DNA of 64,000 nt from contig KV908682.1 of assembly GCA_002005505.1 (NCBI GenBank), positions 38,672-102,671 of the forward strand, read 5' to 3'. The notes beneath the pieces are model-generated. The model saw only the letters and a program-made list of their open reading frames with translations. It did not search any database and was not told where the DNA came from. The translations under genes were made by a program, and so were the position numbers. This document shows positions 15,298 to 62,487 of the stretch, in pieces; position 1 is the stretch's first letter; each line of letters starts with the position of its first letter. This DNA comes from Botryococcus braunii (taxonomy: Eukaryota > Chlorophyta > Trebouxiophyceae).

Positions 15298-16027
15298 TGA
15301 ACAATTCTGGGCGTAATGTTCCCTGTATGTCCCGGCACGAAGGGTGTTAAGCTCGGTCGGGTCTCTTGCTGTGTGTCGGAGAGCAAGCAGAGCCCGACTA
15401 TGTGTTGGCACTTGTGGCAACTGATCAGAGATAAGCACCCGGAGTGCTCTTTCAGTCCCAAACAAGTCATTACATTGCTTCTTGCTCTCTCTCAACGCCA
15501 AGGAATTCAAACTACCTCTTCTAAGCATTGACAGATAGTTCGCATTACCATTGTTCGATGAGCCAAGCATTAGCAACATTCTAATACTCTTATCTAGACC
15601 TCTTCCTAATCAATTTGTCCATGCAAGTTACACTAAGATGCAGCACTTCACCGGTATGTCCCGGCACGAAGGGTGTTAAGCTCGGTCGGGTCTCTTGCTG
15701 TGTGTCGGAGAGCAAGCAGAGCCCGACTATGTGTTGGCACTTGTGGCAACTGATCAGAGATAAGCACCCGGAGTGCTCTTTCAGTCCCAAACAAGTGCCT
15801 TGCCCTTCATGCCTGCTGCCTATATCCTTTCTCGCAAGGACGCGTCAAATTGCATTACTCTCTCTCTCCAAAATGGAATCGGTCCAGAGCAATTATGGCA
15901 GAACTCTAGAGTTCTGCCATCCATTACTCTACCTCTAAGATTGTTCACATTGATTGCTATAGGGAAGCCTAGCCACTATTACTCTTCTGAGGGAAAGTCA
16001 CTAATCTGTTCCTTCACTATTATAACA
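15298..16027 (-). repeat. TE-B 5' LTR (730 bp)
   Basis: Direct repeat of 1687-2416. The internal module copies are at about 15323-15467 and 15653-15797. The right edge abuts TSD GAGAC at 16028-16032. Confidence 0.95.
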
Positions 16028-16180: not shown

Positions 16181-16338
16181 TGTAGTGAGCATTTGACCTT
16201 ACGTTCGAAAATTCAAATTCGAACTCGTTAGGGTGTTTAATAAGGCTTCTTGTATGGATTACGTTACGTAACGAATCCGTGCCTGATCCAGATTGGGTGG
16301 ACTACTTGAGGCACCCACCATCTTTGTCTAGCCAGAAT
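16181..16338 (+). repeat. TE-D left terminal direct repeat (A1, 158 bp)
   Basis: Matches 26101-26258 with one difference (16334 A, 26254 G). Similarity ends abruptly after that, apart from a short CAGGC(A)TTGAGAG stretch. It contains the palindrome CGTTACGTAACG. Confidence 0.9.
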
Positions 16339-17748
16339 TCCAGGCTTGAGAGTTTTTGTTCAACTTAAACATGGTGATTTACCTTTATGACTCCTTGTAG
16401 AAGCTCAGGCGTAAGAAGCCTAGGCGTAAGAAGCCTTATTGTTTACATGAGCACGCTAGAAAGGAGATCTTAACTAGACAGGCCAGGTGCTAGGGGCAGT
16501 GCAGCCGACTTCAAGCAGCAAGCCGCCGACCAACACCCAGCGTCGTCACCTCAGTAGGAAGGTAATAGCCGACAGTGAGCTTAGGAAGCCCTGTCTCTCC
16601 CGAATGTAGCTTCGAGGTGTAGCTTTTTAGGGGACGCCCATAAGGCCCACTTCTCCTTAGGATTAAGCTCATTCCGGCGTGTAGTAGGTTGTTATAACCA
16701 CACACATTTGTAAAATGAACAGTTATCTCGCCTAATTCTCGTGGTCTTCCCTGTATGCTGTCTCAAGATCGTAAAGGACTGTGTCGCGCATAGCATCCGA
16801 ACGCTGCCGTTTGAGATAATTAGCACGGGAAACTTTGCTCATTCGCTAGGGAGCCTTCGTTTTGTACTCACCAGTAGATAAAGTGATGTTCTCTGTTTGG
16901 TTTGCAAGTATGTGCAGAGGAACACTCGCATAAGGCTTACCTAGGATCGACCGAGTTGCACGGAACCCAACCTTGTTCGCACTTAACGGAGTCAGTACCA
17001 CACGTTCAAGTCTCATAGTGCATTTCAAAATTGTTTTGATCACTTCGACCCCAGAAGCAGAGCTAGGCGTGCACGGACCGAGGTCGACACCGAGTTTTAT
17101 GTCGCTTGTCCGAGTTGTGAACACGTATTGCATGTGGGTGATATTGGCTTAAAAAAAAGAGGATTTTTGAAACAATTTGCATGTTGGGTTGGCACTAGAA
17201 GAATGATTCCACCATAATCGATCGCCATAGATAAGGTCGACGTGTGTGAAGTGATAAGTGCCGTTGTCGTCGAAAAGCCACACCCCTGCGTTCTGTTCAT
17301 GCTTGAGACAGTAAAAGAAAATAATTCGAACAGAGAAGCTTGACTAAATCTCGTGTGTTTGATTCCGTCAGGATTCCGTGCACCCCGAGCCTGTGATCTG
17401 ATCGAAACTTTGAAATGCATGCGCACTGAGTCGTTTGAGCTGTGGTCACTCTAAAAAACAACAAGGAAGGCAATTAAAGAAAGGTTAAAACTGTAAGAAT
17501 CGGTCACTGGTAGCCTGATCGGTGTTTAATTCCTTTGGTACATGTCTTGTATGCTTTGAAAATAAATCCAATGGTTCCTATGAGAAAATATTTGTAAATT
17601 ATCACGACTATCTGACTGTGTGAAGGATTGTTTTGGGGGGACAACCGGGAAGGCTCTGGTTCCCGTTGGGTTTTCCACTAGCGTCTGAGTGAGCTAATCC
17701 TGTTGCATTCAAATTCCATTAAGTAGCTTAGTAAGGGCTATTGCGCAC
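16339..17748 (+). other. TE-D long untranslated leader
   Basis: About 1.4 kb with no supported gene before the gag ATG. It has a short tandem repeat of GGCGTAAGAAGCCT around 16407-16438 and a G-rich run near 17635. TE-A has a similarly long stretch upstream of its gag, so the long leader may be a family trait. Confidence 0.6.
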
Positions 17749-20700
17749 ATGGATCCTTTAAATGATTCTGAAACTAGCCATCAGGGTACCACTCCTCCCA
17801 GGAGACCTAGAGCTCCTTTACCAACCACACCTACTCTGCCTCCCCGGGCGGAGCTTTTGCCTATTGTGAATAATGATGAGGCTTACCACGCATTTAAATC
17901 AGTACTTGGTCTTGTTGAATTAAACTGTGGGGTGCGAGAAGCAAATCGTTTTTCAGAAGCACTTAGCAATGTTGATCTTCCAGAAGGTTCATTGGGTATT
18001 GATAAAATAGCTCATGCGTTTGAACGTGTCTTGAGGAAGTGTCTTCGAGCTAGGAATGAGGAAGTGAGTGAAACAATAACTACAGCAACTGAGTCAGCAT
18101 TGAGGGCAGCGCTACAACACCAGCAAAATACAGCACAATCAGCGCAGCCAAGGACAGCAACTCCAGGCGACATTCACAACTTAAGACGAGTCGTTTCGGA
18201 CAGACTGCCTCCACTTATCAGAGGCATTTCAGCCATGAATTGGAGCAGACATGTCAGAGACGTACTAGCACGCGATGGAGCAAATCTTACAGAGGACGTT
18301 AAGCTGGATTTGGTCAAAAAGGCTGCGTATCTACATAAGGAGGTAGCCACCCTCCTCGATGCACACTTAGCAGGTAAGACCCTCGTAACTGTCACTGATT
18401 TCTTGCACGAAGTTCAACAACATTTTAAACCAGATCCAATAGGGTACATCGAGTGTATTCGAGCCAAAGCACAAAAAGATAATCAAACTGCCTCATCCTA
18501 TGTCAAGGAGTTGGAGGATATTGGTTTGTCTTTTTGGATTGGATACCCTACTTCTGAAGAGCAATTTGATGTGATTATTAACACCTTCTCGAAGCATCAC
18601 TACACGTATATTCGGCAGCAATTTGATGTGGCAAGGAGTACAGTGAGGAGGACGGCTGGAGCCAATTCAATCACATTTAGGGGTCTGATCACTTGGGCTA
18701 ACTCATCTGATTCTGCTTTCACCACTAACAAAATGCAGAAGAATTATGATAGAGGTGCAGGCAAAGCAGCTGGAGCACAAGGCCAGAATCAGCCCGGACA
18801 TGATAACCAAGGTAAGGGCCGGCGTGGCAGAAAGAACAAGGACAAGGGACAGGCCAATTTGGGCCAGGCAGCCAACGAGCAAGGCTTTGAAGAATATAAA
18901 TCATTCGTGTGTCAGCTGGACATTGACTGCAGCTCAGAAGATATCGAGATGGATTGTGCACTCTCCGAATTGGCAAACCAACATAAGGTACAATCACCCT
19001 CGGTACAAGTTCGCACTCCCTCTCGAGCAGATCAAAATGTTGTGGGATTCAGAGAGGTAATTCCTGTGTCTCGTGCTAATGCTCCTTACACTCCCATACC
19101 TAAACTCAGGGCAAGGAGTCGTGTGCATGCAACACTTGACGACGCAATGCAAGAACCTCAGGTTCCCCTGGTGCACTCAACTGCAGTCCATGTTCCCATT
19201 GATCAGGATGGCTTTATTGTTGTGAATAATAGTAAGAGGAAGCGTTTAGCTGTTCCTCCCTTGCCTGTAAGCAATGCCAAGTCACCTTCTTCAAAAGCTC
19301 TACCACCATCTTCAGCTCATGTATTTCCAGTGACACCAGTTGCGTGTGTAAATCCTCAATCACCCCTTCGGACACCGTTAGGTACAACACCGCTGCACAG
19401 AATAGCCCCTCAGGTAGGCTCGTCAATTCGTCCTAGACGAGAGGCGTGTAAGCCTTCAGCCCCAGCTGTAGCATCATCGCAAGTGAGGGTTGCGCATTCA
19501 CGGGCATTTTCTCCATCAGTCAGCGCACCAATGGCCTACCGTCCTCCCGGGTATTCACAAGAAGCACCTCCAAACCAGTCTGCAATTGCTGCAGCAGGGC
19601 AGTCATTACACCATGTACAGCCCATCTCAAATTTCAACTCTACGCCAGCTAATGCAGCGGCATTGCATGAGCCTGCAAGACAGCCTCCTCGTGCACCCAG
19701 AGATCCCAGGCCTAGGCCGCAGCTAGCAGCTTCCATAGCGCAGCAGCAGCCAGCCGTCACAGTTGAGCCACCTGTTGCATCAACCCCATTCGTCGCCGCG
19801 AGACGAGCTGTCAGCACTTCAGCTGCAGCACCGGATGCACCAATGCAGGCGAGCCCTTTATTATCTACACCATTAGGGAGAGCAGATGTGAATCCTCCCA
19901 TTGATTATTCAAACCCTAGGTATTTGAATGTTGACCCAACAGTGCCTCCTTTGCCTTATGAGCCTAGCAAACCCAAGGACAATAGACAACCACACTGGCC
20001 CCGTGAATTGCCTGATCCTATGGAATATGCTGGTTGGCACTGTGGACCACATCTCACACCTTCACTTGTGCGTGGTGAAAATAATCCTCCACGAGTTTCG
20101 AAGCCGTTTGTCCCTGTTTTAGAACATCCACCAAACATTGAGAATGAGGTCAACATGGCACGGTTTAACTCCACCTTGGACACCAAACTCGAACCCATAT
20201 GGAAAATAGAGAAGGGTGTTTTTAAGGCTGCCTCTGAGTCACCATTGCCAACTCATAGAATGCTTACCACTATGGATGTCGTGAATAACAAGCCCTATGT
20301 GAGAATGGTATCTCCTCAAGTACAATTGGCTGGAGACAATCTAGTAATTACTACTCTCACTCAAGGCCCTGGACAAATGCGCCCTGAATTATCTGCTTAC
20401 ACGGTGGACATTTCTGATTTACTTAACAGAAGGCCCCAGGAGCCTGTCTCCAGTACCGTGGGCGCAGGTGATGTTTCTACTCCATTGGAGAGCATGTTCC
20501 GTGAGGCACGCACGGCACAGCGGAATCGTGCGAATCGATATTACGATCTCTCATTTCAAGCACGCGCTGAAGATGCCGAGCTCTATTCTTTTCAGAAGTT
20601 CAAAAAGGGGGAGTGCAATTCTCTTTTATTACCTATACCTCCTCCTATGGAACCTCACCATCAGGTAAACATACCCCCTCCAATGCCACCTGCAGACTCA

Positions 20701-21789
20701 TCGGATATTTCTATTAATATGATGCAAGCACTGGGCCCCATGTCTGGGACCCCTTCTCCTGAAGAAGTTCAAGCCAATGCTGCTGGTAATCGTAGGCCTT
20801 ATAATGCTGAACCCTACAGACGTGATGACAGAAATCCTCACCCTGTAGCGCCTGCTCCCTACTTTAATTCACCTGAACACCGATTGGGACAGTGCATGTT
20901 AACCATCTCGTTGGCCGGTCTTGCGCAATTGAATCGAAACCCGGACTATGCACCTTTTATAGATTCTTTGGAAAAACTAGTGCGTCCGATGAATAAGGAT
21001 CTTCAACCTGTTGTATCTCAGCTTGCTCAGTGCATCAATAATATGGCTCTTGAACAGAACCTGCCTTTGCGTTGCGTAGTGCCCGATCAGGACCAGGCAC
21101 AGGGGGGTGGGGCACCAGCTTTTGTTTCTAACTTTGATGCAGGCCCTTCGGCCACTATTCTAGTTGGAGATGTACATGAGATCCCCATCTGCACTTTGCT
21201 CACTCCAGCCATGCAGCTAGCGGAGCCCCTGCCTCTGGAACAACAGATTCCGTACTTACAAGCAGCACTAATGCGGGCGGAAATCTTCAACATGCCTACG
21301 GCATCTATGCCGTCGTTCGAGTTCAGCCACATGGATAAGACTGGCAAGCCTCTTTCTCAAAAACTCATTGCTCACTTTGACACTGGTTGCAATGTCAATT
21401 TGATGAGTATGAGGGCGTTCAAGAGAGATAGACATGCATTCAAACCAAGTCAAATTAAAAAGATCAAACCATTTCGTGTAAACCTTGCAGATGGTAAAAC
21501 GCAAACCATGACTTGTGAAGCACTGCAAGATGTTCCTTTTTGCATTGATCTTGCTTGGTATAGTGCATCTTTGTTCATTGTTGAAAATTTAGCAACCGAC
21601 TATTTGATAGGTTGGCCCTTCATGCTCAGATATGATGTGCAGTTGAAACCACAACAAGCTGCTTTTGCAATTGGCATCCCCAGGTCAAATGTCTTTAATC
21701 CTGATCAGTTGCACCCCAAAAGGCTTTATCAAGTTAGGGATTTGGAGTTCACTACGAAACAAGTAGCTCTAGGTGTAGTCTCCGACTAA
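17749..21789 (+). CDS. TE-D Gag-protease polyprotein (1,346 aa)
   Basis: ATG at 17749 and an open frame to TAA at 21787. The gag helical region is at about residues 10-310, with the FKPDPIGYIECIRAKAQK stretch conserved in TE-A. A basic stretch (GRRGRKNKDKG, about 360) replaces a zinc knuckle; I see no CCHC. A proline/alanine/glutamine-rich region of about 500 residues follows. The aspartic protease has HFDTGCNVNLM (D at about 1211) and ATDYLIGWPFMLRYD. It is much longer than the usual 400-500 aa Gypsy Gag because of the low-complexity middle. Pol follows in the same frame after the TAA, so pol was expressed by stop readthrough or the stop is a later mutation. In TE-A the corresponding junction is a TAG with pol shifted by -1. 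Confidence 0.88.
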   Translation: MDPLNDSETSHQGTTPPRRPRAPLPTTPTLPPRAELLPIVNNDEAYHAFKSVLGLVELNCGVREANRFSEALSNVDLPEGSLGIDKIAHAFERVLRKCLRARNEEVSETITTATESALRAALQHQQNTAQSAQPRTATPGDIHNLRRVVSDRLPPLIRGISAMNWSRHVRDVLARDGANLTEDVKLDLVKKAAYLHKEVATLLDAHLAGKTLVTVTDFLHEVQQHFKPDPIGYIECIRAKAQKDNQTASSYVKELEDIGLSFWIGYPTSEEQFDVIINTFSKHHYTYIRQQFDVARSTVRRTAGANSITFRGLITWANSSDSAFTTNKMQKNYDRGAGKAAGAQGQNQPGHDNQGKGRRGRKNKDKGQANLGQAANEQGFEEYKSFVCQLDIDCSSEDIEMDCALSELANQHKVQSPSVQVRTPSRADQNVVGFREVIPVSRANAPYTPIPKLRARSRVHATLDDAMQEPQVPLVHSTAVHVPIDQDGFIVVNNSKRKRLAVPPLPVSNAKSPSSKALPPSSAHVFPVTPVACVNPQSPLRTPLGTTPLHRIAPQVGSSIRPRREACKPSAPAVASSQVRVAHSRAFSPSVSAPMAYRPPGYSQEAPPNQSAIAAAGQSLHHVQPISNFNSTPANAAALHEPARQPPRAPRDPRPRPQLAASIAQQQPAVTVEPPVASTPFVAARRAVSTSAAAPDAPMQASPLLSTPLGRADVNPPIDYSNPRYLNVDPTVPPLPYEPSKPKDNRQPHWPRELPDPMEYAGWHCGPHLTPSLVRGENNPPRVSKPFVPVLEHPPNIENEVNMARFNSTLDTKLEPIWKIEKGVFKAASESPLPTHRMLTTMDVVNNKPYVRMVSPQVQLAGDNLVITTLTQGPGQMRPELSAYTVDISDLLNRRPQEPVSSTVGAGDVSTPLESMFREARTAQRNRANRYYDLSFQARAEDAELYSFQKFKKGECNSLLLPIPPPMEPHHQVNIPPPMPPADSSDISINMMQALGPMSGTPSPEEVQANAAGNRRPYNAEPYRRDDRNPHPVAPAPYFNSPEHRLGQCMLTISLAGLAQLNRNPDYAPFIDSLEKLVRPMNKDLQPVVSQLAQCINNMALEQNLPLRCVVPDQDQAQGGGAPAFVSNFDAGPSATILVGDVHEIPICTLLTPAMQLAEPLPLEQQIPYLQAALMRAEIFNMPTASMPSFEFSHMDKTGKPLSQKLIAHFDTGCNVNLMSMRAFKRDRHAFKPSQIKKIKPFRVNLADGKTQTMTCEALQDVPFCIDLAWYSASLFIVENLATDYLIGWPFMLRYDVQLKPQQAAFAIGIPRSNVFNPDQLHPKRLYQVRDLEFTTKQVALGVVSD

Positions 21790-24700
21790 TTGTGCGCAGA
21801 TACATCCGAATCGCCCATGAGAATAATCTTCGAGTGCTTGTGGAGTGATCCTGAGTATCAGCACCGGTTGCCAGCAACCCTCTGGACTTTTGATGAAGCA
21901 CAACAGCTAATCCGGAGCAGTAAATGTGATTCAGCCTTGCTCCCCTTTAGCCTCTTATATAGAGACCAGACGGCAAGCCTGGGTAACCCCGGTCCATCTT
22001 CTGACTCACCTATTTCTAACTTGATCTCCATGCATGAAATTGATGTAACTGATCTCTCTCTTTTTGAAGATGAAATTCCTTGTTTATGTGAAGTTGAAGC
22101 ACACCCGCAACAATTACCCGAAGATGAAGACAAACGCAAAGATATTGAGAAGTTGCTGTCTGAGTTTTCACATTTATTTAGCACAAGCAAGGAAGATTTG
22201 GGATTAATCAAAGACCCACACATTAGCCACAAAATAGAAGTGAAACCGGATTCAGAACCTCCAACTAGATTTCGCAGTATGTCTTCATATTCGGAAAGAG
22301 AGAGAGAGTTCATGTTGAAAGAAGTAGAAATGCTCTTAAAACTTGGTATAATTAAAGAATCTACTTCTCCTTGGATCTCAGCTCCAGTGATTGTTCGTAA
22401 ACATGATTCAAGTCTAAGGCTTTGCATAGATTTTAGACCCCTGAACCTGTGCACTGTACCTGATCCGTATCCTCTACCTTTGATTGAAAACATGTTGCGT
22501 TGAATGACCAATGCAAAATATTTTTCTAGTGTAGATGTTAAATCTGCATTCTGGCAAGTCCCCATGCATCCTGATAGTACGAAATATACAGCTTTCATGA
22601 CTCCTGAAGGTAAATATGAGTGGCTTAGGATGCCCTTTGGTCTTAAAAACGCTTCATCCACCTTTCAGAGGATTATTGATCATGTACTGGGGCAAACTTG
22701 CTTTTCTGCACAGTACCTTGACGACATTTACATTTTTTCAGATTCATGGGAAGATCATCTAATGCACATTAGACTTGTGTTCCAAAAGCTATCTGACAAC
22801 AATATTAAACTTGGCAGACCAAAATGTATTTTTGGTGCCTCTTCTGTCAAAGCGCTTGGACATGTTGTGGGCGGGGGTGTGATGAAACCTGATCCCGAAA
22901 ACGTAGCTGCCATTTTAAATTTGCCCATACCGAGGGATGTTACTATGGTAAGATCAGTATTGAGCGCGGCAAGCTACTATCGAACTTATGTTGATAAGTT
23001 TGCTTTGATTTCTGAACCTATGGCTAATCTGCTCAAAAAGAATGTGAAGTTTGAGTGGACCCCTGAATGCCAGGAAGCCTTTCATAAACTTAAATCTTGC
23101 TTAACCAAAGAACCTTTACTCCGTTTGCCTAATTTTCGTAAGCCCTTCATCTTAACCACGGATTGGTCAAAAGTAGCAATCGGTGCCGTACTTAGTCAAA
23201 TCGATGAGGCGACCGAGTTTGATCATCCTGTTGCCTTTGCATCACGTTTGTTAAATTCGGCAGAGCGTAACTATGCGCCAACTGAAGGTGAGTGCTTGGC
23301 TTTGGTTTGGGCTATCGAAAAATTTAGACACTTCTTAGATGGGAGACATTTTATTGTGTACACTGATCATGCGGCATTACAGTGGCTGAACACTAAAAGG
23401 CATGCCAATTCTAAATTAGAAAGATGGGCTCTTAGGCTTCAAGAATACACCTTTACTGTTATACATAAAAAGGGGGAAGAAAATCTAGTAGCCGACTGCC
23501 TTTCACGTTGTGTTTATGCCGAGGCCCTGTATGCTTTTGCTATTGATCCCGTGTGGCCTGCTGGAGCTAAGACTCAGAAGGACTTGGACGAAATTCCATG
23601 TGTTGTCTGTGGTTATCCTCAGGGCGACGATAATATCGTCATCTGCGATGGGTGTCAACGGTGTTTCCATCTTAGATGTCTGCTGCCCCCTAGGTCTTTG
23701 CCCCCTAGTGGTGCTTGGTACTGTCCTGCATGTACACCTTATTTTGGCATGGAAGGTGAGTTGAAATTGGAGGAGCTAAGGGACAAGGAGACTCCTTTAT
23801 GCTTAAACAGGTATGACCCTTATAGGATTCCTGAATTTTTAGATTATGTACACTCCGGACATCAACTCGACCTCCTTAAGCCATTGCCACCGCGGACAGC
23901 AGCTGACTTTCGAAGAAGGGGCTCCTATTTCACCTCTCACCCGAGCATACCTGGATGGATCATGGTCTTCAAAAAGGTTCGTGGTAAGACAGCTCGCTGG
24001 CTTGTTTGTCCCCCTCTCTCTTATAGATGGGATATAATTCGAATGATTCATGATGTGCTAGTACACCCTGGAATTTCTCAAACCTTGGCAGTACTGCATA
24101 ACCATTTCCATTGGCCCGGAATTAAGGAAGATGTTGCTTTGTTTGTAAAAACTTGCGATGCGTGTCAGAAAATAAAGGCAGCATCCCCGCAACCTCCTCC
24201 TTATCAGAACCCGCTTTGTTTGGCCCACTTGATCATGTTCACATTGACCTGTTTGGCCCTTACCCTGAAAAGATCCTTAAGAATAACAAAGACAAAAATG
24301 TGAAAAAAGTCTGGGTTGTAGTTATGATAGATTATTTTACCAAAGCTGCAGAATTAACACTAATCTATAATAAAACACCCATGACTGTTGCACGTTCATT
24401 TTACTACTCATGGATCTGCAGGTATGGTGTCCCAGCAGTAGTAACCTCTGATAATGGTGCTGAATTTTTAGCTGATTTTAAACACATGCTTTCCCGTCTT
24501 AACATCTATCACATCACTATTTCCCCGAATCACCCTTCTTCTAATGGTGTTGTGGAACGCTTGGTGAAAACTATCAAAACTATGCTTATTGCACATTATA
24601 ATGACAATCCGGTTGAAGGACCCTTTCTTTACCCATCATGCTTAATGCATACATGTCACGTCCTCATACTGCTCTTCGTGGACTTTCTCCTTTCCAGATG

Positions 24701-25243
24701 ATATATGGGTATGCACCAAAATTGCCCGTTGCGGTCCGCGATGTGCTCGCTAATGCCGCTCAGCTATTCAGCCCTTCAGAGCATGTAATTAATCTTCGGG
24801 ACAGATTGCAAGAGCAGTATCAGCGCATAGCACTGGAGCTTTGTGACAGAATGCAGCAGCAGCTTGAGGGTCATCACAGGCGTGCACAAAGGCGTAAGCG
24901 TAAACAGACAGAGTTACAAGTCGGAGATCTGGTATTGGAAGCTGCACCTGGAAGAGGACCCTTGCAGAACAGTCTCAGAGGACCGTACCGCATTATTGCG
25001 TTGAATCCAGCTAAGACAATTGCAGTCCTTCACACGGGGTCCACTTTATTGAAAGGAGCGAGAGTTTTCAAGCGGCATACTTCCCATCTGGTTAGATATT
25101 ATGAACCGTCAGCCGTCTCGGGGGAGGGAGCCATAGAAACTTCTCATACTTATTCAGTTACAGTGTACCAGCAGTACATACCAATCAGACGGCCAGCGTT
25201 CCATCACCTTCTACAGATTTTTCATGACTTACAGTGGCAGTGA
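21790..25243 (+). pseudogene. TE-D pol: RT, RNase H, PHD finger, integrase
   Basis: Begins in frame after the gag TAA. RT (IDFRPLN, MPFGLKNASSTFQR, QYLDDIYIFSD) is interrupted by TGA at 22501-22503, where TE-A reads a lysine. RNase H (LTTDWSK, PTEGECLALVWAIEKF, VADCLSR) is followed by the PHD finger (23599-23733). The HHCC integrase zinc finger is HPGISQTLAVLHNHFHWPG, then CDACQ. The catalytic core has HIDLFGP, SDNGAEFL and NGVVERLVK. Single-base shifts near 24190-24220 and 24640-24660 break the frame. The last piece (24638-25243) has the LxVGDLVLE-type C-terminal domain and no chromodomain. The DDE residues are present, but the frame breaks make it inactive as it stands. Confidence 0.9.
23599..23733 (+). 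other. PHD finger domain inside TE-D pol
   Basis: C4HC3 pattern: CVVC, then CDGC, FHLRC and WYCPAC give all eight zinc ligands in PHD order with normal spacing. It lies between RNase H and the integrase zinc finger. PHD fingers usually read histone H3 tail methylation state, so a targeting role like that of chromodomains is a reasonable inference. Confidence 0.9.
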
Positions 25244-25803
25244 ACTCAGCGTATTCGTTACAGCGCAGCTGTTATGCCACATGCAGCACTTCTCACAGTT
25301 AGCCCACATAGCTTGGAGGCTGGACCAGTACCTAAATTTATCCACTTGCAGCTGCCCTTCTCCACTAAATGGATCAGGACAATACAAGGATCGGATCGTG
25401 TGTCTGGGAGGTCTTGTACAAGAAGCTTGGAGCGTTAGCGTGGGAATTCCCTGATTTTGCCTCTGCATTTACATGCATTGAGCAGCTTTTGAATCTCACA
25501 AACTTGATGCACTTGAAATTATTCTCACTATGAGCAATTATCAGCTTTTTGGGTACGTGGCAACTGATAACTCATCATCCAGTCAGAAACTAGGGAATCC
25601 AATCAGTGATGATAATGCTTGAATTATCTCCCTTGTATATGTTCTATTCAGGCAACCCCGGCAGGTCATAAATTTTGAAGTACTTATAGGGGTCTGATCA
25701 GACATTTCTCTCACAATTCAAGGATTTGTTTTCTTTCGAGTCAAGTCGGAGCCGTTAGCCCGACCACCGACAAGTGTTCGACTTCGCTGTTTTTGTTTTC
25801 ACA
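25244..25803 (+). other. Spacer between TE-D pol and the next ORF
   Basis: About 560 bp without a supported gene. ACTTATAGGGG near 25680 could be a TATA-like element for the ORF that starts at 25804. Nothing else recognised. Confidence 0.4.
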
Positions 25804-26700
25804 ATGGCAGATAGGAAAGTGTTTCGTTTCACAAATGAGCTCAACCTAACAACAACGGTTAAGCTTATTGATGCATTTGTAGAAAAGTCAAGTACTATGA
25901 CTGACTTTGAGTTAACCGACTATTACAATGATCATATGAGTGAGATGACGCAATTGATCAGTGCAACGCAGCATGTTTCAGCAGCAATAACAATGTTTGA
26001 GAAGATTCAGTCAAATATTAATTTGACATTCTCCAATCCAGCAGTAGCTGCAGGAATTCCCGACATACCGGTAGGAATCGCCTTTCGTTCATTACATATA
26101 TGTAGTGAGCATTTGACCTTACGTTCGAAAATTCAAATTCGAACTCGTTAGGGTGTTTAATAAGGCTTCTTGTATGGATTACGTTACGTAACGAATCCGT
26201 GCCTGATCCAGATTGGGTGGACTACTTGAGGCACCCACCATCTTTGTCTAGCCGGAATATACAGGCATTGAGAGTAAAGTAGATTTCATAGGCCTAGAGA
26301 GATGGCAATTTGGATCTTTTGAGCAAGTCTTATCAGACATTAAGCATAAGAAAGGTGATTACTACAGGCAACAGCACTTATTGATTTTCTGAGGAGCGCT
26401 TCTTCACCATCTCACCATCGTCACGCTCAGCACCAGCGGCAGCGTCAACCCAACCGACAGCAGTCAGGATACAAGGGCAATAAACGCAGCAGGAGTGAAG
26501 AACAAGTATGGACACAGCTACCACCTGCCATTGCCTGCCAACAATATTTACCGCAACCGGCAGTTAAGTCTACAATGGAGGAGGATATGAGAGATGCGAC
26601 ATCAAAAATGTCAGACCAAGCTACCCCACCTGTAGATGAAGAAGGCGGCATTTCCAGGCAAATGGCAGAATGTTTCAACTTGGACTCTTCAGAAGTCTAA
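25804..26700 (+). pseudogene. Unrecognised Gag-like gene split by the TE-D internal junction
   Basis: ATG at 25804 opens about 97 codons (MADRKVFRFTNELNLTTTVK onward), helical and charged, ending in the junction at 26082-26100. After the 158-bp repeat, frames from about 26265 continue with SKVDFIGLERWQFGSFEQVL, then a one-base shift near 26380. A basic, glutamine/histidine-rich stretch follows (HHRHAQHQRQRQPNRQQSG, KGNKRSRSEE), and the frame ends SSEV at 26700. The order, a helical N-terminus and a basic C-terminus, resembles a retroelement Gag or nucleocapsid protein, but I do not recognise the family. It may be a third TE-D ORF or the remnant of another element. Confidence 0.45.
26082..26258 (+). 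repeat. TE-D internal end-to-end junction (B1, TATA, A2)
   Basis: CTTTCGTTCATTACA (26082-26096) equals the element's right end (27144-27158). It is followed by TATA and then by a copy of the element's left end (26101-26258 equals 16181-16338). This looks like a right end joined to a left end through 4 bp, as in a circle junction or split direct repeats. TATA also occurs at 26258-26261, so a separate insertion of the 158-bp repeat with a TATA duplication is an alternative. Confidence 0.7.
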
Positions 26701-30100: not shown

Positions 30101-30230
30101 AATATGATCAGGTTTAAACAAACGGGTTAGTATCACAAAGAACTCTTTGACATCAGGTATGTTCTTACCCATGGTTGCTGAATCAATGCTTAATGCCACT
30201 TCAGTATTCGCTCGCGCAGCCTTCTTGACT
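27163..30230 (-). pseudogene. TE-A gag-protease, middle portion, frame-broken
   Basis: Reading down from 30230: a gag core (PDHIGYLAALRAKRQRENQ, equivalent to PDPIGYIECIRAKAQKDNQ in TE-D), an arginine/glycine-rich stretch near 29660-29700, a long low-complexity region, then YMARFNTEFRCTLEPIW, GPMSGTSYQV, APYFHNPESR, ISLLTPAMQIAEAIPL and the protease start GHFDSGCKTNLMSGKAYE. The order is that of TE-D's 1,346-aa frame. At least five frame changes (near 27650, 28003, 28630, 29035 and 29700) show it is dead. Both edges are insertion sites with TSDs, CTTC on the left and TGCA on the right. Confidence 0.9.
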
Positions 30231-30234
30231 GCAT

Positions 30235-31750
30235 GTCACGTCCTGATATAGGGTACCCGATACCCAAGGTAGACAAATTTTTTTCTGATTGAAATCGGAG
30301 ATTATGCAACTACGGTTAGTAATAGCTGGGCTGCGGCTTCTGTATCAAGGTAAATTATGCGGATCGCCACTCAAGGATTCGGCCTTGAGACCTGGATTAC
30401 CGGAATACTGGATTACTGGTACTTACGAACCGTAAGTTACGATAGGGCCAATCGAGGGCTGGAGGTTACAATCGGAGACTGCTGCGGTTCAAGTCTCGGA
30501 TGTTTTAGTCGGGGATCTGTAGTCGGGGTCACCGGCTTACGGCCTATCGCAGGCCGGACTATCGGACTTTGGGGTTGACGTCTGGAGTATGAGTTCAACT
30601 GATGTGATAGGTCGTGCGTTTCACTTCCAAGGGTACTAAATTGAATTATTATTACTCTGTTATTAGGTTTTGTAGCTCCCTTTTAGGATTCGGGCTGGTC
30701 CACGTTCGGTGTTGTTGCGGCTTGGATGGAGCGGACTGGAAAGCACCTTGCGGCACTGGTAAACGGAATTATGAATGATGTTATAGTGATCAAATAATTA
30801 TCGAAAGTATTACGTCGGGTCAAATTGTAGTATCTCTATGTATAACGTGCGGTTATATCTCTGATCAAAACTTAAGTTCAACCACGTAGAGTATTATCGT
30901 TCGGAAACTATCAGGGTTTGGGTATTATTTAGTAAGACAATACTGATAATCTGACACTTAGGGGTGTTGCTTCACGAATACGACAAGTCAGGTCGAGTAA
31001 ATCGAGTACGATGATGCAAGTAGGCAAACAGACAGGCACATTAACGCAGGCGAGACGGACGTGGCTGGTAGGAATCTTGGGGTTCAACTTGTGCTTACAA
31101 AGAGACTTGCGACAGAGGTTTCCCTCTCCTAACACCTAGCACAGCGTGGTTTAGAAGACGGCTGGACGCCCTTATATAGTCGTCCCCGAACTTACGCGGA
31201 GATTCTGGAAGATTCTGGACCCTTCTAACCGAAAGGTCCAGAAGGGCTTAGAACCTTCTGGAGGAATCCAGAGAAGCTCTTACAATCAGCCACGCACTTC
31301 AAATGCATGACAAACTGACACGTATACGAAATCTAGAGAGTTCTAGACTGATGGAGAAAGTTCTGGACACGAAGTTCACAATGAAGAGACGCTAAACATT
31401 ACACGTCACCCCTGTTCTAGAAAGTACGAGCTGATTCCTGAAACATCAAGGAACTGTTTAGCAGCTGCTTATGAACTGCACATTAAAACTGGCCTTCAAC
31501 GTGCGGGCCAACAACGTGTCAAACAACAAATTTCCCTCCAAGTCCCACTCCAGACCAACACGTGCGGGGCTGGGACTTAAAAGGGCACAAGATTGAGGGT
31601 TTTATCAAGCAGTACAAAATCCTCTCGAGCCGTGCAAGTCCCGACTCGAGGGCGCAGTCTTCCCGGTCTCCAGGGCACCCGGAAAGGACATATTCTGTTC
31701 GAAATCCATAATGGCTACTTAGTATAACAGGCACTTGCTATATCGTCACA
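30235..31750 (-). repeat. TE-E 3' LTR with extra terminal 10-mer
   Basis: 30247-31750 matches 38023-39527. The outer end carries TGTCACGTCC (plus strand, 30235-30244), which is missing from the equivalent position of the other repeat. The same ten bases recur at 31753-31762, just inside this repeat and separated from it by TA. Confidence 0.9.
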
Positions 31751-32251
31751 TATGTCACGTCCTTTCCCCCCCTAAAAGGAAGGAAAAGACTGGGTACGTC
31801 TTTTCGAGAAGCAGCCTTTTGGCCTGCATAAGGTACAGCTTGTTAGGTAAAATAAGGTACGATTTGATGTTGCATGAGATGTTAAGTCTAACTCAGGGGC
31901 CAACTTCTCATATACGTGGAAATCCTGACTCCCAAAGAGGGTTTTGCTTGCATTGAGGTGGTCACAATATATTCTTGTACTGCAATGAATGGGTCAATAA
32001 GGTACAACCTATGTACTGCGTGCGGATGCGTAACTTTGCCAATATGGTGGCATATCAGATACCACTTGTAGAAACGCATAATTACCATAGACGAATATTT
32101 ATTTTCCTCCACCAGAGTTCGAATGCGTCAGATCGCTTCCACCATGAAGGTGTACATGGTTGATTAAAGCCAGTCTTTCGGGACTAAAAGCCTGTGTGAT
32201 ATTATTGCTCCCACTTCGGGAATCCAAACCCTTCCAAATATGCTGCTCCAT
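31751..32251 (-). other. TE-E 3' untranslated region with polypurine tract
   Basis: The minus-strand purine run (plus TTTCCCCCCCTA, 31763-31774) is the likely PPT. It is separated from the LTR by the 10-mer GGACGTGACA plus TA instead of abutting it. ATAAGGTAC occurs at 31828, 31852 and 31997. No gene seen. Confidence 0.65.
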
Positions 32252-35200
32252 TTAGATTGATGCTCGGATGCGCTGACGTGTTGCATATTTCTCGTTGAGA
32301 TATCCATGATAGCAGAATGACCCAAGTTGTGACGGCGGCATGCGGCACACCTGATCCTTGGTCATTGACCCCGGAATAAGTTCTTGTACTTCGCCCTTGC
32401 TGCAAGGTACTTTGTAGGTGTTGTTGTCGGTTGCTGCGTGTTGGGGAGGTGATTCAGAATGCACCGCATTTGCGGCATCACCGTTGTTGATCAGGGACCC
32501 TTGGTCCATGAGTATAGTTGCGCAGGGCTGAATTGCTCGTGCCGCGGCTCCTTGCTTACGTATTCCTTCCAAATCCAAACTCCGACATGCCAACATGATA
32601 CTGCTTTGGCTGAAGTCCTTTAGAGCAGGCTTCTTATCATGCATGGTCTTCCTTCGTAGGGAGGTTGCATCCTTTAGCATTCTACCGGTGGTGATATAAG
32701 CTACTTTAAACCTTTTCAATGCGGGCAATACTATTCCTTTTCTAAATATTTCAACAAGTCTTGTGGGAATTCCAAACACTCTAGGTAAAACACTACAACA
32801 ATTGTGCGTCCAGCCTAAAGAAGGCATGGCACTCCCAGTACTATCATGTGGGGCACTTTTAAAGTGAACTGGTTCTAACATAGAACACATTACTTTTGCT
32901 GACGCGAACAGTGGGCTGAAGTGGTCTGAGTCTTTTATGTTGCATGAGTTCGCTGGGGCAACGCACAAGCGAGGGCTCGTGGGGGTACTTAATACATTGT
33001 GACTACGGTCAATCTGAGGCTTCTGCGTACTATTTACTGCGTGTTGAAGGTGATCCGGGGAATGCGCATCCCGGGGTTGCGTCGGTAGACGTAAATTAAC
33101 TACTTCTGATTGTATTGCGGCAGACTTAGGCTGCATGGGGACTCCCGTTAGACTGTTGTCATGGTGTACCACTGCTTCTGCAGGGACAGCGATAAGGTGC
33201 GGCAAACCGGGGTCTATCCTATGATGAATTAAAGTAGTACGTTGCTGCGTATTGCCAGGGGAAAACACATCCCTGCACTCCATGACAAGTCCAAGGGCGC
33301 GCTCGCGCTCCTCGGGTAAAATTTTGGTCCCCAGGGGAACCTCTTCCGGCTCAAGGTGGTATGTATCTTCTTCAATTATTTGGATGTCTGGCAGTTTCTG
33401 TAGGACGTGGTCTTCTGTCAAGTTGGGAGCAGGCGTCTTCACAATCATCACCGGCCAACGGGTAGGCCCCACACGCATGCGAGAAAAGCTTGGGGATCGT
33501 CCCGGGGCTGTAAACAGTTGCACTCCTAGAGGATATTGTCGAACGATTTGGAATTTCTCCGTTACTATCGGAAACCATGTGGCTTCAGGCCACCATGGTA
33601 AAACAAGGACGGCTGACGTTGTGGTTGGGCTGCTGTCATAACATGTGATGCAGTGCTGCACAATCTCCATGGCTTTTGAAAAAGGTGGGTTGCAGTAAAT
33701 GTTCTTGTGGGTCCAATCTTGCTTCAAACAGTCTTGCTGGGGTGTCCAAAAGTGAGGCAATTGAGAGTTGCGGCCTTCCTGATCGCAGCAAGCGTCAAGA
33801 TCAAATTGGCCGAACTGCTCCTCAATGTCTTTGAATATATTCTTTTCTAGCATCCAATCTTCGGTGTTACTCGTTGAAGGCGGCGAGAGAGATGGTCCCT
33901 CTGCAAGGGTGATGTCAGCGGTGGTGGAATTTAAAAAGTCTACTTGCATTGCTTGTGGCTCCTCAATAAGGTCAGGGTATTCTTCAACAGATGATGAACT
34001 GGCAGTCTCTCCACTACTGACTTCTTCTTCGCTTGTATCCTCGGGCGCGGAGGTGTCAGAGGCGCTCTCGTCAAAATAAATTACTTCCGGCAGTGCTGGT
34101 ACCTCCGGTACCTCCGGGTCTCCCAGGTTCTCAACGGGAGCCCGCATGACACAATAACGATTAAAAGTCTTATCAGATGGCAATACTGTTATAGGGACTT
34201 TCCCAATGAGGTTAGGGTCTATTTTATATGACATTTCTGACTTTGCAAAGCTGATATCTGCGTGGGCTTGCGTGAGCCAATCGGTACCCAGCAGTACATC
34301 GTAGTTCGTCGCTCCACTTACAAAAACGTCAATTGGGAATATCAATCCATCAACACCTACTGGTAGCTTTCTAATTATGCCCCAAGGGGCAGACATGTTG
34401 CCATCAGCACATGAGTACTTAAGTCTACAAGGCTCGATCTGGTTAAGCATGCCCAATTGTCTAGCTGCAGATTGAGATATCATGGTATTTGTTGCTCCAG
34501 TGTCGATAATTCCTTCCTCAAAAATAGTATTGTTAAGAATAATAGGGACTATGGCTACAGTGGTGCTGATCGGGTTGCGTTGCAGATGCTGTTGGACTCG
34601 CGGCGCCTCGGGCGTATCGCTGGCTGAGGGGCTCTCGGAAGTGTCACTAGAGATTACTACAAGCTCTGCCTCCGCAGCTCTTGGCGGGGTTGAAGTGGTT
34701 TGCTTGCTTCGCTGGAATTGTTGGCGGGACGCATGTAGCTCTTGGATGGATCTTTGAAATTCCTCCTCACTAATATGATTCAAGTAGGATTGTACTGTCA
34801 GCTTCATAGGTAGCCCTTTAATTTGTTGGATTGGCTCGCTAGAAGAGGCTGGCACAACTGGGGGTCTTCGGTACGCCGGCCGGGGAGGATCTGGAAGTGG
34901 TGGCAGTCCCCCTAAGTCGACTTGCGGGCGCGGCGCAGGTGCCCTCCTAGGAAAAGCAGGTACTGGGGCTGGCGTAGGTGGTGCAGCAGCTGAAGGATTA
35001 TTTACTGGTGCTGAAGGTCCATTAGGCCCTGAGGTAGCTGGCCTATTTGAAGATCTGGGGTCCACAGTGGTGTTTTGCACATTATTAGGCCGGCGGCGTA
35101 GCAGTGGCTGGTCCAATTCAGGTGGATTTTCGGCTGGTCTTTTGGTGGCGTAGACGGGGAACGGGTCAGTAAACCCATCATACATCATCCTTACTTGGGG

Positions 35201-36103
35201 CTGTTCTTCTTCGGCTGGGTCCTTATGAAACTGAGTAAAATTAGCGGCGGGCATGGGCCTCTGTAACTCTGCAATTTGGATTCTGAGTCTCTCCATTTCT
35301 CTGGTAAGCGTATCTATATCGGTTGTGGGTGGCGGAAGAGGTGCCTCCCTAAGTGGATTAGCTGGTGCAATCTGTCTTGGCGGTGCTGCTGGTTGCGGCT
35401 GATTACGCCTTTCGGGGAAATCTCGCTGACGCGGCCAGTTTCTATTTTCTCTGTTATCTCTGTTGTTCTCCCTTTGATTTTGCTGCTGCGGCGCGCGTGG
35501 CGCTCGCTGATCCACATTGTCAATCGGGCGGCGAGTCCAAGGCTCACTTCTCTCGCGTGCTGGTACTTCTGTGTTTTGATTAACGTACATACCTCCTAAT
35601 GGTGCATGCCCAAAGGTCTGTTCATAGTTTGCAGCCAAACGTATTATGTCGGCTAACGCTCCATTGCCGGGGTAGGTCATCTGTACTCGCTCCCTAAGAT
35701 GGGGCACTAAGCCTTTCACAAATAACTGGGTCACCATCCTGGGTGGCAGAGAGTTCTGCAAATAACCCACTAATTTCCTGTATCTGTCAGCGTAGCTGCG
35801 AACGGTCTCATTTGACAATTGTGCACATGTGTCTAACTTTAACATAAGGGTGTCTTCATCAAGGCCAAATCGTTCAAGGAAGGCCTCTTTACAGTCATCC
35901 CAGTCATGTATATCATCTTGATTTGCGCGGAACCATGTGTAAGCCTCCTCGCGCATGGCATGCTTAACAAAACGTAAAACCCGATCACCCACTACTTGGT
36001 TGATCTCAATAAAAAGTTCGAAAGACTCTAACCACTGAAAAGGGTCCTCTGTAGGCTTTCCATAGAAAAATTCCAAACGTACTGGGGCTTGTATGTCTGC
36101 CAT
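32252..36103 (-). CDS. TE-E Gag, protease and N6-adenine methyltransferase-like polyprotein (1,283 aa)
   Basis: ATG at 36101-36103. A Ty3/Gypsy-type Gag lies at residues 1-170 (DPFQWLESFELFIEINQ, TWFRANQDDIHDW, YADRYRKLVGYLQ). It lacks a zinc knuckle and continues as an R/N/Q/P-rich stretch. The aspartic protease is at about 525-615 (IIDTGATNTMIS with D at about 534, YDVLLGTDWL). An acidic serine-rich linker (670-715) leads to a methyltransferase-like domain at about 750-895. Residues 925-971 resemble the start of Gypsy RT (MECRDVFSPGNTQQRTTLIH). Homology then stops and about 310 residues of unrecognised sequence follow to the stop. With no RT or integrase the element must depend on a helper. 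The open 1,283-codon frame suggests selection or recent loss. Confidence 0.9.
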   Translation of the reverse strand: MADIQAPVRLEFFYGKPTEDPFQWLESFELFIEINQVVGDRVLRFVKHAMREEAYTWFRANQDDIHDWDDCKEAFLERFGLDEDTLMLKLDTCAQLSNETVRSYADRYRKLVGYLQNSLPPRMVTQLFVKGLVPHLRERVQMTYPGNGALADIIRLAANYEQTFGHAPLGGMYVNQNTEVPARERSEPWTRRPIDNVDQRAPRAPQQQNQRENNRDNRENRNWPRQRDFPERRNQPQPAAPPRQIAPANPLREAPLPPPTTDIDTLTREMERLRIQIAELQRPMPAANFTQFHKDPAEEEQPQVRMMYDGFTDPFPVYATKRPAENPPELDQPLLRRRPNNVQNTTVDPRSSNRPATSGPNGPSAPVNNPSAAAPPTPAPVPAFPRRAPAPRPQVDLGGLPPLPDPPRPAYRRPPVVPASSSEPIQQIKGLPMKLTVQSYLNHISEEEFQRSIQELHASRQQFQRSKQTTSTPPRAAEAELVVISSDTSESPSASDTPEAPRVQQHLQRNPISTTVAIVPIILNNTIFEEGIIDTGATNTMISQSAARQLGMLNQIEPCRLKYSCADGNMSAPWGIIRKLPVGVDGLIFPIDVFVSGATNYDVLLGTDWLTQAHADISFAKSEMSYKIDPNLIGKVPITVLPSDKTFNRYCVMRAPVENLGDPEVPEVPALPEVIYFDESASDTSAPEDTSEEEVSSGETASSSSVEEYPDLIEEPQAMQVDFLNSTTADITLAEGPSLSPPSTSNTEDWMLEKNIFKDIEEQFGQFDLDACCDQEGRNSQLPHFWTPQQDCLKQDWTHKNIYCNPPFSKAMEIVQHCITCYDSSPTTTSAVLVLPWWPEATWFPIVTEKFQIVRQYPLGVQLFTAPGRSPSFSRMRVGPTRWPVMIVKTPAPNLTEDHVLQKLPDIQIIEEDTYHLEPEEVPLGTKILPEERERALGLVMECRDVFSPGNTQQRTTLIHHRIDPGLPHLIAVPAEAVVHHDNSLTGVPMQPKSAAIQSEVVNLRLPTQPRDAHSPDHLQHAVNSTQKPQIDRSHNVLSTPTSPRLCVAPANSCNIKDSDHFSPLFASAKVMCSMLEPVHFKSAPHDSTGSAMPSLGWTHNCCSVLPRVFGIPTRLVEIFRKGIVLPALKRFKVAYITTGRMLKDATSLRRKTMHDKKPALKDFSQSSIMLACRSLDLEGIRKQGAAARAIQPCATILMDQGSLINNGDAANAVHSESPPQHAATDNNTYKVPCSKGEVQELIPGSMTKDQVCRMPPSQLGSFCYHGYLNEKYATRQRIRASI
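33421..33856 (-). other. DNA N6-adenine methyltransferase-like domain in TE-E
   Basis: Residues about 750-895: DWMLEK start, FGQFDLDACCD (the acidic pocket expected near the methyl donor), HFWTPQQDCLKQDW, then the NPPF catalytic motif at 805-808 (IYCNPPFSKAMEIV) and SAVLVLPWWPEATWF. This order fits the phage and DIRS-element Dam-like family (known as DNA N-6-adenine-methyltransferase, PF05869). The family name is from memory, not a search. Confidence 0.8.
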
Positions 36104-38010
36104 GATAATTGTTCAATCAAACAAGGTCTTATGCTCTAGATTGCCTAACACACTATTAGAGATTACGCTCGAGTGTTCACAATACTAGTTAATGTCAGAT
36201 AATGTATATACTGCTATATACTTAAATGCTGATTCTGCCTATTATAGCTGGCTGTAGCAAACGGAGTGTAATCAGACCCCTCCTAAAGGGGCATCTCACT
36301 AACTCTGATAATGGAGTTGCAGATAAGTCTTCCTTCAAATCAGGGTACTCTGAAGCTTCTTAATAATTTTAATTCTCCAACAAACGATAAAACAAACTAT
36401 AAGAATTTCAGGATTTGCAGAAGCTCGAGTCTCAATTCAGCTAGTTACGCCAACCTCGGACCTTCAACTCATAAATGCAAACAGTGCAGATGAACTCTGG
36501 AAGTACTTTTCATGTGAAATCAGACCTCTCTTCTACAGAGGAGATCGAAATATTATGTATTTCCACAGATGCGTATCACGAAACCGCGATCTTTGATGTT
36601 GCTGAAATTTCGAAAAAGAAACAAATATGCAAACGCAATTCCAAAAGTATAGTCTTTACTATTTCTCAAATGTATTCAAACAGAAAACAAGTGCTCAAAG
36701 CTATCAAATTGTCTCAACTTCTGCAGTACAATGATGGGGTAAAATTTTTCTTTCCTTTCCTTTCCCTTCCCACGTGCCTACATACGCCCCGTACCCTAGG
36801 CAGCTAGTAATCAACCTGAGATTGATATATTTAGTATTAAGAGTGAAGCTTATCCTAACTAAATCCACATTCGCCCCGCCCTTTACCCCCTTCGGCACGT
36901 GCACGGATCCGCTCGCCAGCCCCACCCTACTTCCACTGCTCGCGGCTCGTGGACCTCCCAGTCCCACGCAGACCGCTGACCAGGAGCTCTGTCCGGTGCA
37001 GGTGTGGGCCCTATTGAATTTTCGTCGTCTCTCGTAACCTCGACTCAGATTGTTTATGCTGCTGTGACTGGCGAGCGAGGACATGCTGGCATGGTCCGCA
37101 ACACCAAACCTCCACATTGAATCAGCGCGCCTGCCTCAGTTTTTTCCTCATTTTTGGGGTTTTTTACATCATACTTATTTCTGGGATTCTGTACGGGTAC
37201 TGCGATGGGATTTCGGGTGGTATATGGGGACCATCGGTGGTCCATTGGCAGATCCTGATTCGCACACTTACTCACCACCCACAATCATTAATCCTTTCTG
37301 GTTTATAATGAGCAGCATCTGTTTAGCCGTCTTTTGACGGTGCTTTTACTGGTTGTCCTCCTTGGTAGCACCTCTCACATAGCCACTAGTTGTTTTCAAT
37401 CTGCTGCGCAACGCGTGGACTTGCTATGCATAATCACTTGCAGCCATATCACTATGCACTGTTTATATGACCCCATCACACCACAGCCCACTGTATGCAT
37501 GTACACGGACCTTCTGGGGTATGATGCTGGCCACATCTGCCAGCTGGGGTCCCACCCAAACTTTCAGTTACAGGTACGGGAACTAATGGTATGCACATTG
37601 GTCTGTCTGTGCTTTTCTTAAGGGCTTGGTTATGCTGGGTGGAGGCTACGGCACTTCGTGTATGTATGGGGGCCACGGGGAGTAGTGGTGGTGCTTACAT
37701 AATCTCATCTCAGCGTGTGCCGGGTCATGCACACTTTCACTTTTTCTAATGATGGGGTGCTTCAAACTGAACTTTCCTAATATATGGTTTCGCTGCAAAC
37801 GGTCGTTTCTGATGTCTTTGCTGTCGTTCCTGCGACACACGGAATGTAATCAAGCCCCTCCTAAAGTTGTATACCCAGTTCTATAAGCGGACAAAGCTCA
37901 ACTGATTCCAAATACGGTACTCACGTGGTGCTATAAACACGGCAAATCTGCGCAGAAGGCCAGATTCGGAGAGCTCAGGCGCTGACTAATTCAACGCGCT
38001 AAAACTCCCT
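36104..38010 (-). other. TE-E long untranslated leader
   Basis: About 1.9 kb between PBS and gag ATG with no supported gene. There is a pyrimidine run (CTTTCC repeats) near 36748-36771. The leader is unusually long, as in TE-D. Confidence 0.55.
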
Positions 38011-38023
38011 GGACGAATCGCCA
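38011..38023 (-). other. TE-E candidate primer-binding site
   Basis: Minus-strand TGGCGATTCGTCC begins where the two terminal repeats stop matching. It starts with TGG, the complement of tRNA CCA. I cannot assign the tRNA. Confidence 0.45.
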
Positions 38024-39527
38024 TATAGGGTACCCGATACCCAAGGTAGACAATTTTTTTTCTGATTGAAATCGGAGATTATGCAACTACGGTTAGTAAT
38101 AGCTGGGCTGCGGCTTCTGTATCAAGGTAAATTATGCGGATGGCCACTCAAGGATTCGGCCTTGAGACCTGGATTACCGGAATACTGGATTACTGGTACT
38201 TACGAATCGTAAGTTACGATAGGGCCAATCGAGTGCTGGAGGTTACAATCGGAGACTGCTGCGGTTCAAGTCTCGGATGTTTTAGTCGGGGATCTGTAGT
38301 CGGGGTCACCGGCTTACGGCCTATCGCAGGCCGGACTATCGGACTTTGGGGTTGACGTCTGGAGTATGAGTTCAACTGATGTGATAGGTCGTGCGTTTCA
38401 CTTCCAAGGGTACTAAATGGAATTATTATTACTCTGTTATTAGGTTTTGTAGCTCCCTTTTAGGATTCGGGCTGGTCCACGTTCGGTGTTGTTGCGGCTT
38501 GGATGGAGCGGACTGGAAAGCACCTTGCGGCACTGGTAAACGGAATTATGAATGATGTTATAGTGATCAAATGATTATCGAAAGTATTACGTCGGGTCAA
38601 ATTGTTGTATCTCTATGGATAACGTGCGGTTATATCTCTGATCAAAACTTAAGTTCAACCACATAGAGTATTATCGTTCGGAAACTATCAGGGTTTGGGT
38701 ATTATTTAGTAAGACAATACTGATAATCTGACACTTAGGGGTGTTGCTTCACGAATGCGACAAGTCAGGTCGAGTGAATCGAGTACGATGATGCAAGTAG
38801 GCAAACAGACAGGCACATTAACGCAGGCGAGACGGACGTGGCTGGTAGGAATCTTGGGGTTCAACTTGTGCTTACAAAGAGACTTGCGACAGAGGTTTCC
38901 CTCTCCTAACACCTAGCACAGCGTGGTTTAGAGGACGGCTGGACGCCCTTATATAGTCGTCCCCGAACTTACGCGGAGATTCTGGAAGATTCTGGACCCT
39001 TCTAACCGAAAGGTCCAGAAGGACTTAGAACCTTCTGGAGGAATCCAAAGAAGCTCTTACAATCAGCCACGCACTTCCAATGCATGACAAACTGACACGT
39101 ATACGAAATCTAGAGAGTTCTAGACTGATGGAGAAAGTTCTGGACACGAAGTTCACAATGAAGAGACGCTAAACATTACACGTCACCCCTGTTCTAGAAA
39201 GTACGAGCTGATTCCTGAAACATCAAGGAACTGTTTAGCAGCTGCTTATGAACTGCACATTAAAACTGGCCTTCAACGTACGGGCCAACAACGTGTCAAA
39301 CAACAAATTTCCCTCTAAGTCCCACTCCAGACCAACACGTGCGGGGCTGGGACTTAAAAGGGCACAAGATTGAGGGTTTTATCAAGCAGTACAAAATCCT
39401 CTCGAGCCGCGCAAGTCCCGACTCGAGGGCGCAGTCTTCCCGGTCTTCAGGGCACCCGGAAAGGACATATTCTGTTCGAAATCCATAATGGCTACTTAGT
39501 ATAACAGGCACTTGCTATATCGTCACA
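38023..39527 (-). repeat. TE-E 5' LTR
   Basis: About 1,505 bp matching 30247-31750 at roughly 98.7% by eye. The outer end TGTGACG (minus strand) abuts TSD TGCA. Confidence 0.92.
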
Positions 39528-39531
39528 TGCA

Positions 39532-51487: not shown

Positions 51488-51492
51488 TGATT

Positions 51493-62482: not shown

Positions 62483-62487
62483 AGCGA

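Follow-up and report, generated by a model that had tools for sequence, protein, structure and literature searches.

A predicted Dam-type adenine methyltransferase domain within a Ty3/Gypsy Gag-Pol of the green alga Botryococcus braunii

The stretch of Botryococcus braunii DNA analysed here (below, the window: 64,000 nucleotides of contig KV908682.1, assembly GCA_002005505.1, positions 38,672 to 102,671) carries on its minus strand an LTR element whose one long frame joins Gag, an aspartic protease and a Dam-type methyltransferase domain. Its parts are as follows.

30234..39527, minus strand: whole non-autonomous LTR element with TG...CA ends, between 4-bp TGCA repeats at 30230-30233 and 39528-39531
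38023..39527, minus strand: 5' LTR (repeat A1), about 1.5 kb, without the terminal 12-base B block (self-BLAST, junction letters)
Following the 5' LTR: possible primer site TGGCGATTCGTCCAGGG, matched to no tRNA (junction letters)
32252..36103, minus strand: open frame of 1283 codons, Gag - protease - Dam - tail
35708..35971, minus strand: Gag, Retrotrans_gag, codons 45-132 (Pfam E=7.7e-11)
34268..34513, minus strand: aspartic protease, codons 531-612, with DTGATNT at its start (gag-asp_proteas E=1.9e-9)
33554..33865, minus strand: core of the predicted Dam domain, PF05869, codons 747-850 (Pfam E=1.1e-16; AF2 model for codons 733-894)
32255..33208, minus strand: tail past the deletion junction, codons 966-1283, without a Pfam match
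31765..31772, minus strand: polypurine tract GGGGGGGA (sequence)
31753..31764, minus strand: internal B1 block AAGGACGTGACA, flanked by the polypurine tract and the 3' LTR
30246..31750, minus strand: main part of the 3' LTR (A2) (self-BLAST)
30234..30245, minus strand: terminal B2 block CAGGACGTGACA, which closes the element in CA

The two LTRs are 98.7% identical over 1506 bases (self-BLAST, 30246-31751 against 38023-39528). Eight Pfam families were matched in the frame at E<=0.01, with RT, RNase H and integrase absent from them. Among the other long frames of the window 12 of the 14 scanned match LTR-retrotransposon families in Pfam, the scan having covered 15 of the window's 18 long frames. 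A Copia element with 99.9% identical repeats occupies 1686-16027 and houses a nested Copia at 4386-11398, whose identical 695-bp repeats indicate a recent insertion; a Gypsy with 99.5% identical repeats at 51492-63755 is likewise interrupted by a chromodomain Gypsy at 56597-62482, with identical 171-bp repeats.

The motifs FDLDACCD, IYCNPPFSK and AVLVLPWWPEATWF, on which the initial annotation had based an adenine methyltransferase, are all present in the minus-strand frame 32252-36103, as is the protease motif DTGATNT, where the gag-asp_proteas match begins, and the frame is indeed open over 1283 codons. The range proposed for the domain, 33421..33856, begins out of step with the codons by a single base, 33422 being in frame. 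The supposed residual RT start has to be given up: the match with the autonomous relative L039 ends at L039 codon 969 and the RT of L039 starts at codon 1016, so that this stretch is linker 5' of the RT.

The Dam-type assignment itself is borne out by Pfam, PHROGs and the predicted fold. The PF05869 match, to the DNA N-6-adenine-methyltransferase family, scores 61.4 bits against a curated cut-off of 28.1, and PHROG 111, 'DNA methyltransferase', matches the window frame at 5.7e-21. The NPPF letters lie at 33680-33691 (minus strand), and the conserved block around the core extends to about 33434. The AF2 model (pLDDT 82.8, pTM 0.80) takes a Rossmann-like methyltransferase fold, and both features, this fold and the NPP[YF] motif, are present in the domain. 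The model was matched at E<=1e-3 by 19 entries of a viral structure library, and 8 of these carry the name N-6-adenine-methyltransferase; no phage PF05869 structure is among the 50 structural matches (VIA) listed. Motif order and predicted fold are like those of the adenine-methylating phage Dams (PF05869/PHROG 111), which, unlike the domain described here, are stand-alone genes, 25-34% identical among the 30 of 294 records listed and with NPPY in the eight compared. Taking the profile matches and the predicted model together, we consider it confirmed that a Dam-type adenine-N6 methyltransferase domain sits in a Ty3/Gypsy Gag-Pol.

The solved structures nearest to the model are those of PCIF1, an RNA methyltransferase, which counts against the explanation that we prefer, in which the element's own cDNA would be methylated. 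PCIF1 is a host mRNA-cap adenosine methyltransferase, 14-17% identical in structural alignments, and its sequence match is not significant. The main rival explanation, possible though in our opinion rather unlikely, is that the domain methylates not DNA but the packaged RNA of the element, either internally (m6A) or at the adenosine next to the cap; such methylation would hide the RNA from host RNA surveillance or adjust how it is translated and packaged. However, the domain belongs by sequence to PF05869 and PHROG 111, both named for DNA methyltransferases, and the Pfam matches of the window frame include no RNA-binding or cap-binding model. A sequence search of the PDB returned no relative of the Dam domain, and the one phage PF05869 protein tried there found at best a galactosidase at E=0.039, which is not credible. 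PF05869 is perhaps without a solved structure, and the top rank of PCIF1 may reflect only that.

In the host genome (176 Mb in 989 contigs) Dam gave 72 Pfam rows, all over the cut-off, and 85 protein rows, from which 62 nearly full copies were read and 23 partial or weak ones, including L027 and L083, were excluded. Such numbers exceed what chance would give. The genome also gave 35 rows of chlorophyll a/b-binding proteins, which point to an alga of the green lineage, and one exon resembles a photosystem I antenna protein. There are two families, A, which includes the window copy, and B; most rows are 92-97% identical to the window's in A and 62-66% in B. Within its families the Dam domain is conserved, at pN/pS of about 0.2: pooled over 153 pairs it is 0.208 in A, and over 780 pairs 0.205 in B, synonymous changes between A and B being saturated. 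The dN/dS analysis used those 58 of the 62 copies that are full length and stop-free; between the window and the autonomous copy C164 it gave 0.10 for Dam and 0.05 for the protease. Synonymous distance between truncated copies is uneven from one part of the frame to another, at 0.04-0.05 in Gag, 0.10-0.19 in Dam and 0.01-0.03 in the tail, which points to recombination, and a low dN/dS is therefore no proof of selection on Dam within the truncated copies.

These values bear on a further rival, that the domain is no longer enzymatic and acts as a nucleic-acid-binding part or a structural spacer in the polyprotein. Such a fate would agree with the 12 of 62 copies in which the exact CNPPF is missing, with HPPF in the database protein P0001 and with the difference between NPPF in the elements and NPPY in the eight phage proteins. 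We find it improbable: exact CNPPF stands in 50 of the 62 copies (16/18 in A, 34/44 in B), the motif residues vary hardly or not at all although some rows are just 33-35% identical to the window's, the C164 copy with its nearly identical LTRs retains them, and the pN/pS of about 0.2 argues in the same direction.

Autonomous relatives with the same domain order were found in the host genome, and they bear out the Ty3/Gypsy context that had been proposed, as their single frame includes Gypsy RT, RNase H and a DDE integrase. The order Gag-PR-Dam-RT-RNaseH-PHD-H2C2-integrase runs through one frame in L039 (2001 aa), L042 (2017 aa) and L043 (1912 aa); in these three and in the database protein P0002 RT and RNase H stand before the DDE integrase, and in the L044 frame (1557 aa) nothing was matched in Pfam beyond RNase H. 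The cytosine Dnmt3-type family PF00145 has no match at E<=0.01 in these four frames or in that of the window. Of 2248 candidates the best 103 were scored in an RT comparison, 58 of them related and 45 sister RTs. Dam lies within 2.5 kb upstream of 50 of the 58 related RTs (at least 71% identity), at about 320 bases in 39 of them, and within 6 kb of none of the 45 sister Gypsy RTs (43-46% identity) among the matches listed.

Judged by its sequence, the window copy derives from such elements and is non-autonomous, having lost everything from RT through integrase by internal replacement; against the autonomous relatives Gag, protease and Dam are retained besides LTRs and polypurine tract, in line with the earlier suggestion that the domain was kept when RT, RNase H and integrase went. 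Over 2892 bases its internal sequence agrees at 96.9% with that of the autonomous C164 copy (LTRs of 1511 bases, 99.87% identical), and thereafter only over the last 53, with the polypurine tract. The window LTR matches that of C164 at 97.7% over 752 bases and at 89% over 359, with no match between. The window copy has company in this: no RT of the clade follows within 2.5 kb downstream in 15 of the 18 nearly full family A Dam copies, and four places, namely the window, C340, C379 and C640, carry a frame of about 1286 aa; three of these frames, compared in full, align end to end. At C379 a second Dam copy lies 6.8 kb upstream and the intervening LTR is preceded by an element's 3' end; the two truncated Gag-PR-Dam copies, L040 (C379:112300-121299) and C379:110226, look like a tandem with a common LTR. 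From the several like copies and the shared LTR stretches we infer copying with enzymes supplied in trans, which is probably how the window copy was propagated.

The tail frame stays open, and tails related to it are found in the database proteins P0001 and P0003. At the DNA level the second half of the window tail shares 81% identity with a frame of 227 aa that follows pol in the family B copy C100, where RNase H and PHD letters are kept and the integrase stretch is reduced to its first 33 residues. One and the same sequence replaces RT to integrase in family A (window 32255-33208) and follows pol in a family B copy (L086) with most of the integrase gone. The tail was considered as a conserved accessory protein and dropped as such: dN/dS against C100 is 1.23, with no protein constraint, it ranges from 0.15 to 1.17 between truncated copies, where changes are few, and Pfam has no match.

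In the window and in C164 the 5' LTR starts with TGTGACG and is without the 12-base B block AAGGACGTGACA, one copy of which lies between the polypurine tract and the 3' LTR and a second beyond that LTR, where the element terminates in CA. The usual Ty3/Gypsy layout, with the 3' LTR directly after the polypurine tract, was not found, as the B block intervenes, and the repeats follow the A-internal-B-A-B scheme of the DIRS/PAT-type split direct repeats. A pattern of LTR end plus B was found at 33 genome places and its reversed control at none; at the 30 of these 33 that were read the flank is unrelated directly after B in all, the pattern presupposing B and leaving 3' ends without B uncounted. 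L103 and L124 were read as solo LTRs with A and B. By eye, all four insertions seen at both ends have 4-bp duplications, TGCA in the window, CTGA in C164, CGGA in L103 and GGCA in L124. Family B has a different block, AAAGAATGCCACA, identical before and after the LTR in C100; in C523, also of family B, B1 was seen and B2 lies within a 301-base stretch picked by the C100 LTR length, and the family B LTR end plus B occurs at 7 genome places (reversed-pattern control 0).

A Dam-less sister Gypsy is present in the window itself at 16181-26275 (frames 17698-21786, 21790-22500 and 22504-24300), with a PHD finger before the integrase and LTR-like repeats of about 175 bp. Its 3' repeat is preceded by ACATATATGTAG, a CA...TG border with some resemblance to the one in the Dam elements, and given this border the split repeats may be older than the acquisition of Dam.

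Split repeats and a Dam domain are both features of the DIRS group, according to the available text of two DIRS papers (PMC3783388, PMC4157794), which makes the DIRS comparison of the initial annotation a sound precedent and raises a question whether the element is really a DIRS/PAT element or a chimera with one, the Gypsy label being wrong. We hold this to be very improbable. Retrotrans_gag Gag, aspartic protease, TG...CA ends and a short target duplication are Ty3/Gypsy features, all of them present here; an aspartic protease, Gypsy-type RT and RNase H, and the zinc-binding and DDE integrase domains share one frame in the relatives, and the TG...CA ends come with 4-bp duplications. No tyrosine recombinase is among the Pfam matches of the window frame or of the autonomous frames, and the host genome has 0 matches to PF00589, an all-recombinase profile that may miss the DIRS ones. 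As those papers describe them, DIRS elements with Dam resemble ours in having a PF05869-type domain in a polyprotein and, in the PAT branch, split repeats, whereas they possess a tyrosine recombinase and are without aspartic protease and DDE integrase, the reverse of the elements here.

For a Ty3/Gypsy element the split LTRs, TG...CA ends and 4-bp duplications suggest an integrase that works on a joined LTR-LTR junction. The best explanation overall, to which we give a fair measure of confidence, is a Ty3/Gypsy element with Dam between protease and RT, a non-autonomous copy of it in the window, methylation of cDNA and integration from the joined junction. The protease would free the Dam domain within the virus-like particle, and the freed domain would methylate adenines of the element's new cDNA. 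By analogy to what has been proposed for the cytosine methylases of other retrotransposons, this may mark or protect the cDNA before or at integration. cDNA primed at the polypurine tract would have the form B-A-internal-B-A, its ends would then be joined, and the integrase would act at the LTR-LTR junction CA-TA-TG and not at ordinary linear LTR ends. We infer the circular intermediate from the element ends only.

Relatives are found outside the alga's own genome. Among database proteins P0001 and P0003 are Gag-PR-Dam with a tail, P0002 has the full order with PHD, and P0004 is a distant Gypsy of the order PR-Dam-RT. In P0006 (1900 aa), a polyprotein of the Copia type, integrase and RT are separated by a Dam-like stretch that scores 26.9 bits against the cut-off of 28.1. 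P0007 (2289 aa), a chromodomain Gypsy, has such a stretch (20.8 bits, also below 28.1) after RNase H and before integrase and, besides it, a C5 cytosine methylase domain near the end; NPPF and DACC motifs are present in both proteins despite these scores. Viral contigs gave no relative, and genome contigs gave two weak relatives, which were excluded. In an 18-row tree a 100/100 branch splits ten LTR-element Dam domains from eight phage Dams (8 proteins of 294 records), with a long branch for P0007; by eye, the two groups share D, N, W, NPP[FY] and P..WF positions. The RT tree puts P0007 among Dam-less chromoviruses (100/98). A grouping of P0004 with the window clade by RT was not accepted as established, at a support of 77/81. 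The Dam tree and the RT placement of P0007 together require at least two gains, or else losses or an exchange among elements.

The nearest described system is KnitGypsy-Dnmt3 of Klebsormidium nitens (de Mendoza et al. 2018, PMC5890265), which, in the available portion of that paper, has a Dnmt3 in Pol and DIRS-like repeats, the DIRS Dam being mentioned there as well. It shares with our elements the Gypsy domains, a methyltransferase in Pol under purifying selection and the DIRS-like repeats. Going by that description, they differ in that its methyltransferase is a cytosine Dnmt3, while here a PF05869 adenine-type domain lies between protease and RT, and in that the Dam elements have a PHD finger before the integrase and a mobile truncated form. 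An orchid Gypsy with an AlkB m6A demethylase (PMC9289625, as far as its available text goes) is a comparable capture of a methyl-adenine enzyme by Gypsy, but there it is an eraser in a separate ORF, and the Dam described here is a putative writer inside Gag-Pol. An algal DNA transposon is also reported, in the available part of its source, to encode a ParB and methyltransferase protein (PMC12477816). In the literature searched, as far as its available texts go, the retrotransposons described as having methyltransferases of the adenine type are DIRS elements; no report was found in it of a Ty3/Gypsy or Copia polyprotein with a Dam domain, subscription papers and Repbase lying outside its scope.

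Taking these systems together, we may tentatively suggest, while holding it on balance unlikely, that there is an algal LTR group which combines a methyltransferase (Dam here, Dnmt3 in Klebsormidium) with DIRS-like split repeats despite a DDE integrase, which would replicate via joined LTR-LTR DNA reopened by the integrase, with the methyltransferase marking unintegrated DNA as self, and whose Dam modules would have been passed on repeatedly among Gypsy, chromovirus-type Gypsy and Copia elements. The split LTRs, combined with a DDE integrase, raise the question of the form of the integrating DNA. The occurrence of Dam in Ty3/Gypsy, and of Dam-like stretches in Copia and in one polyprotein together with a cytosine methylase, suggests that methyltransferase capture recurs across superfamilies, and the Dam elements offer a putative source of algal 6mA that can be put to the test.
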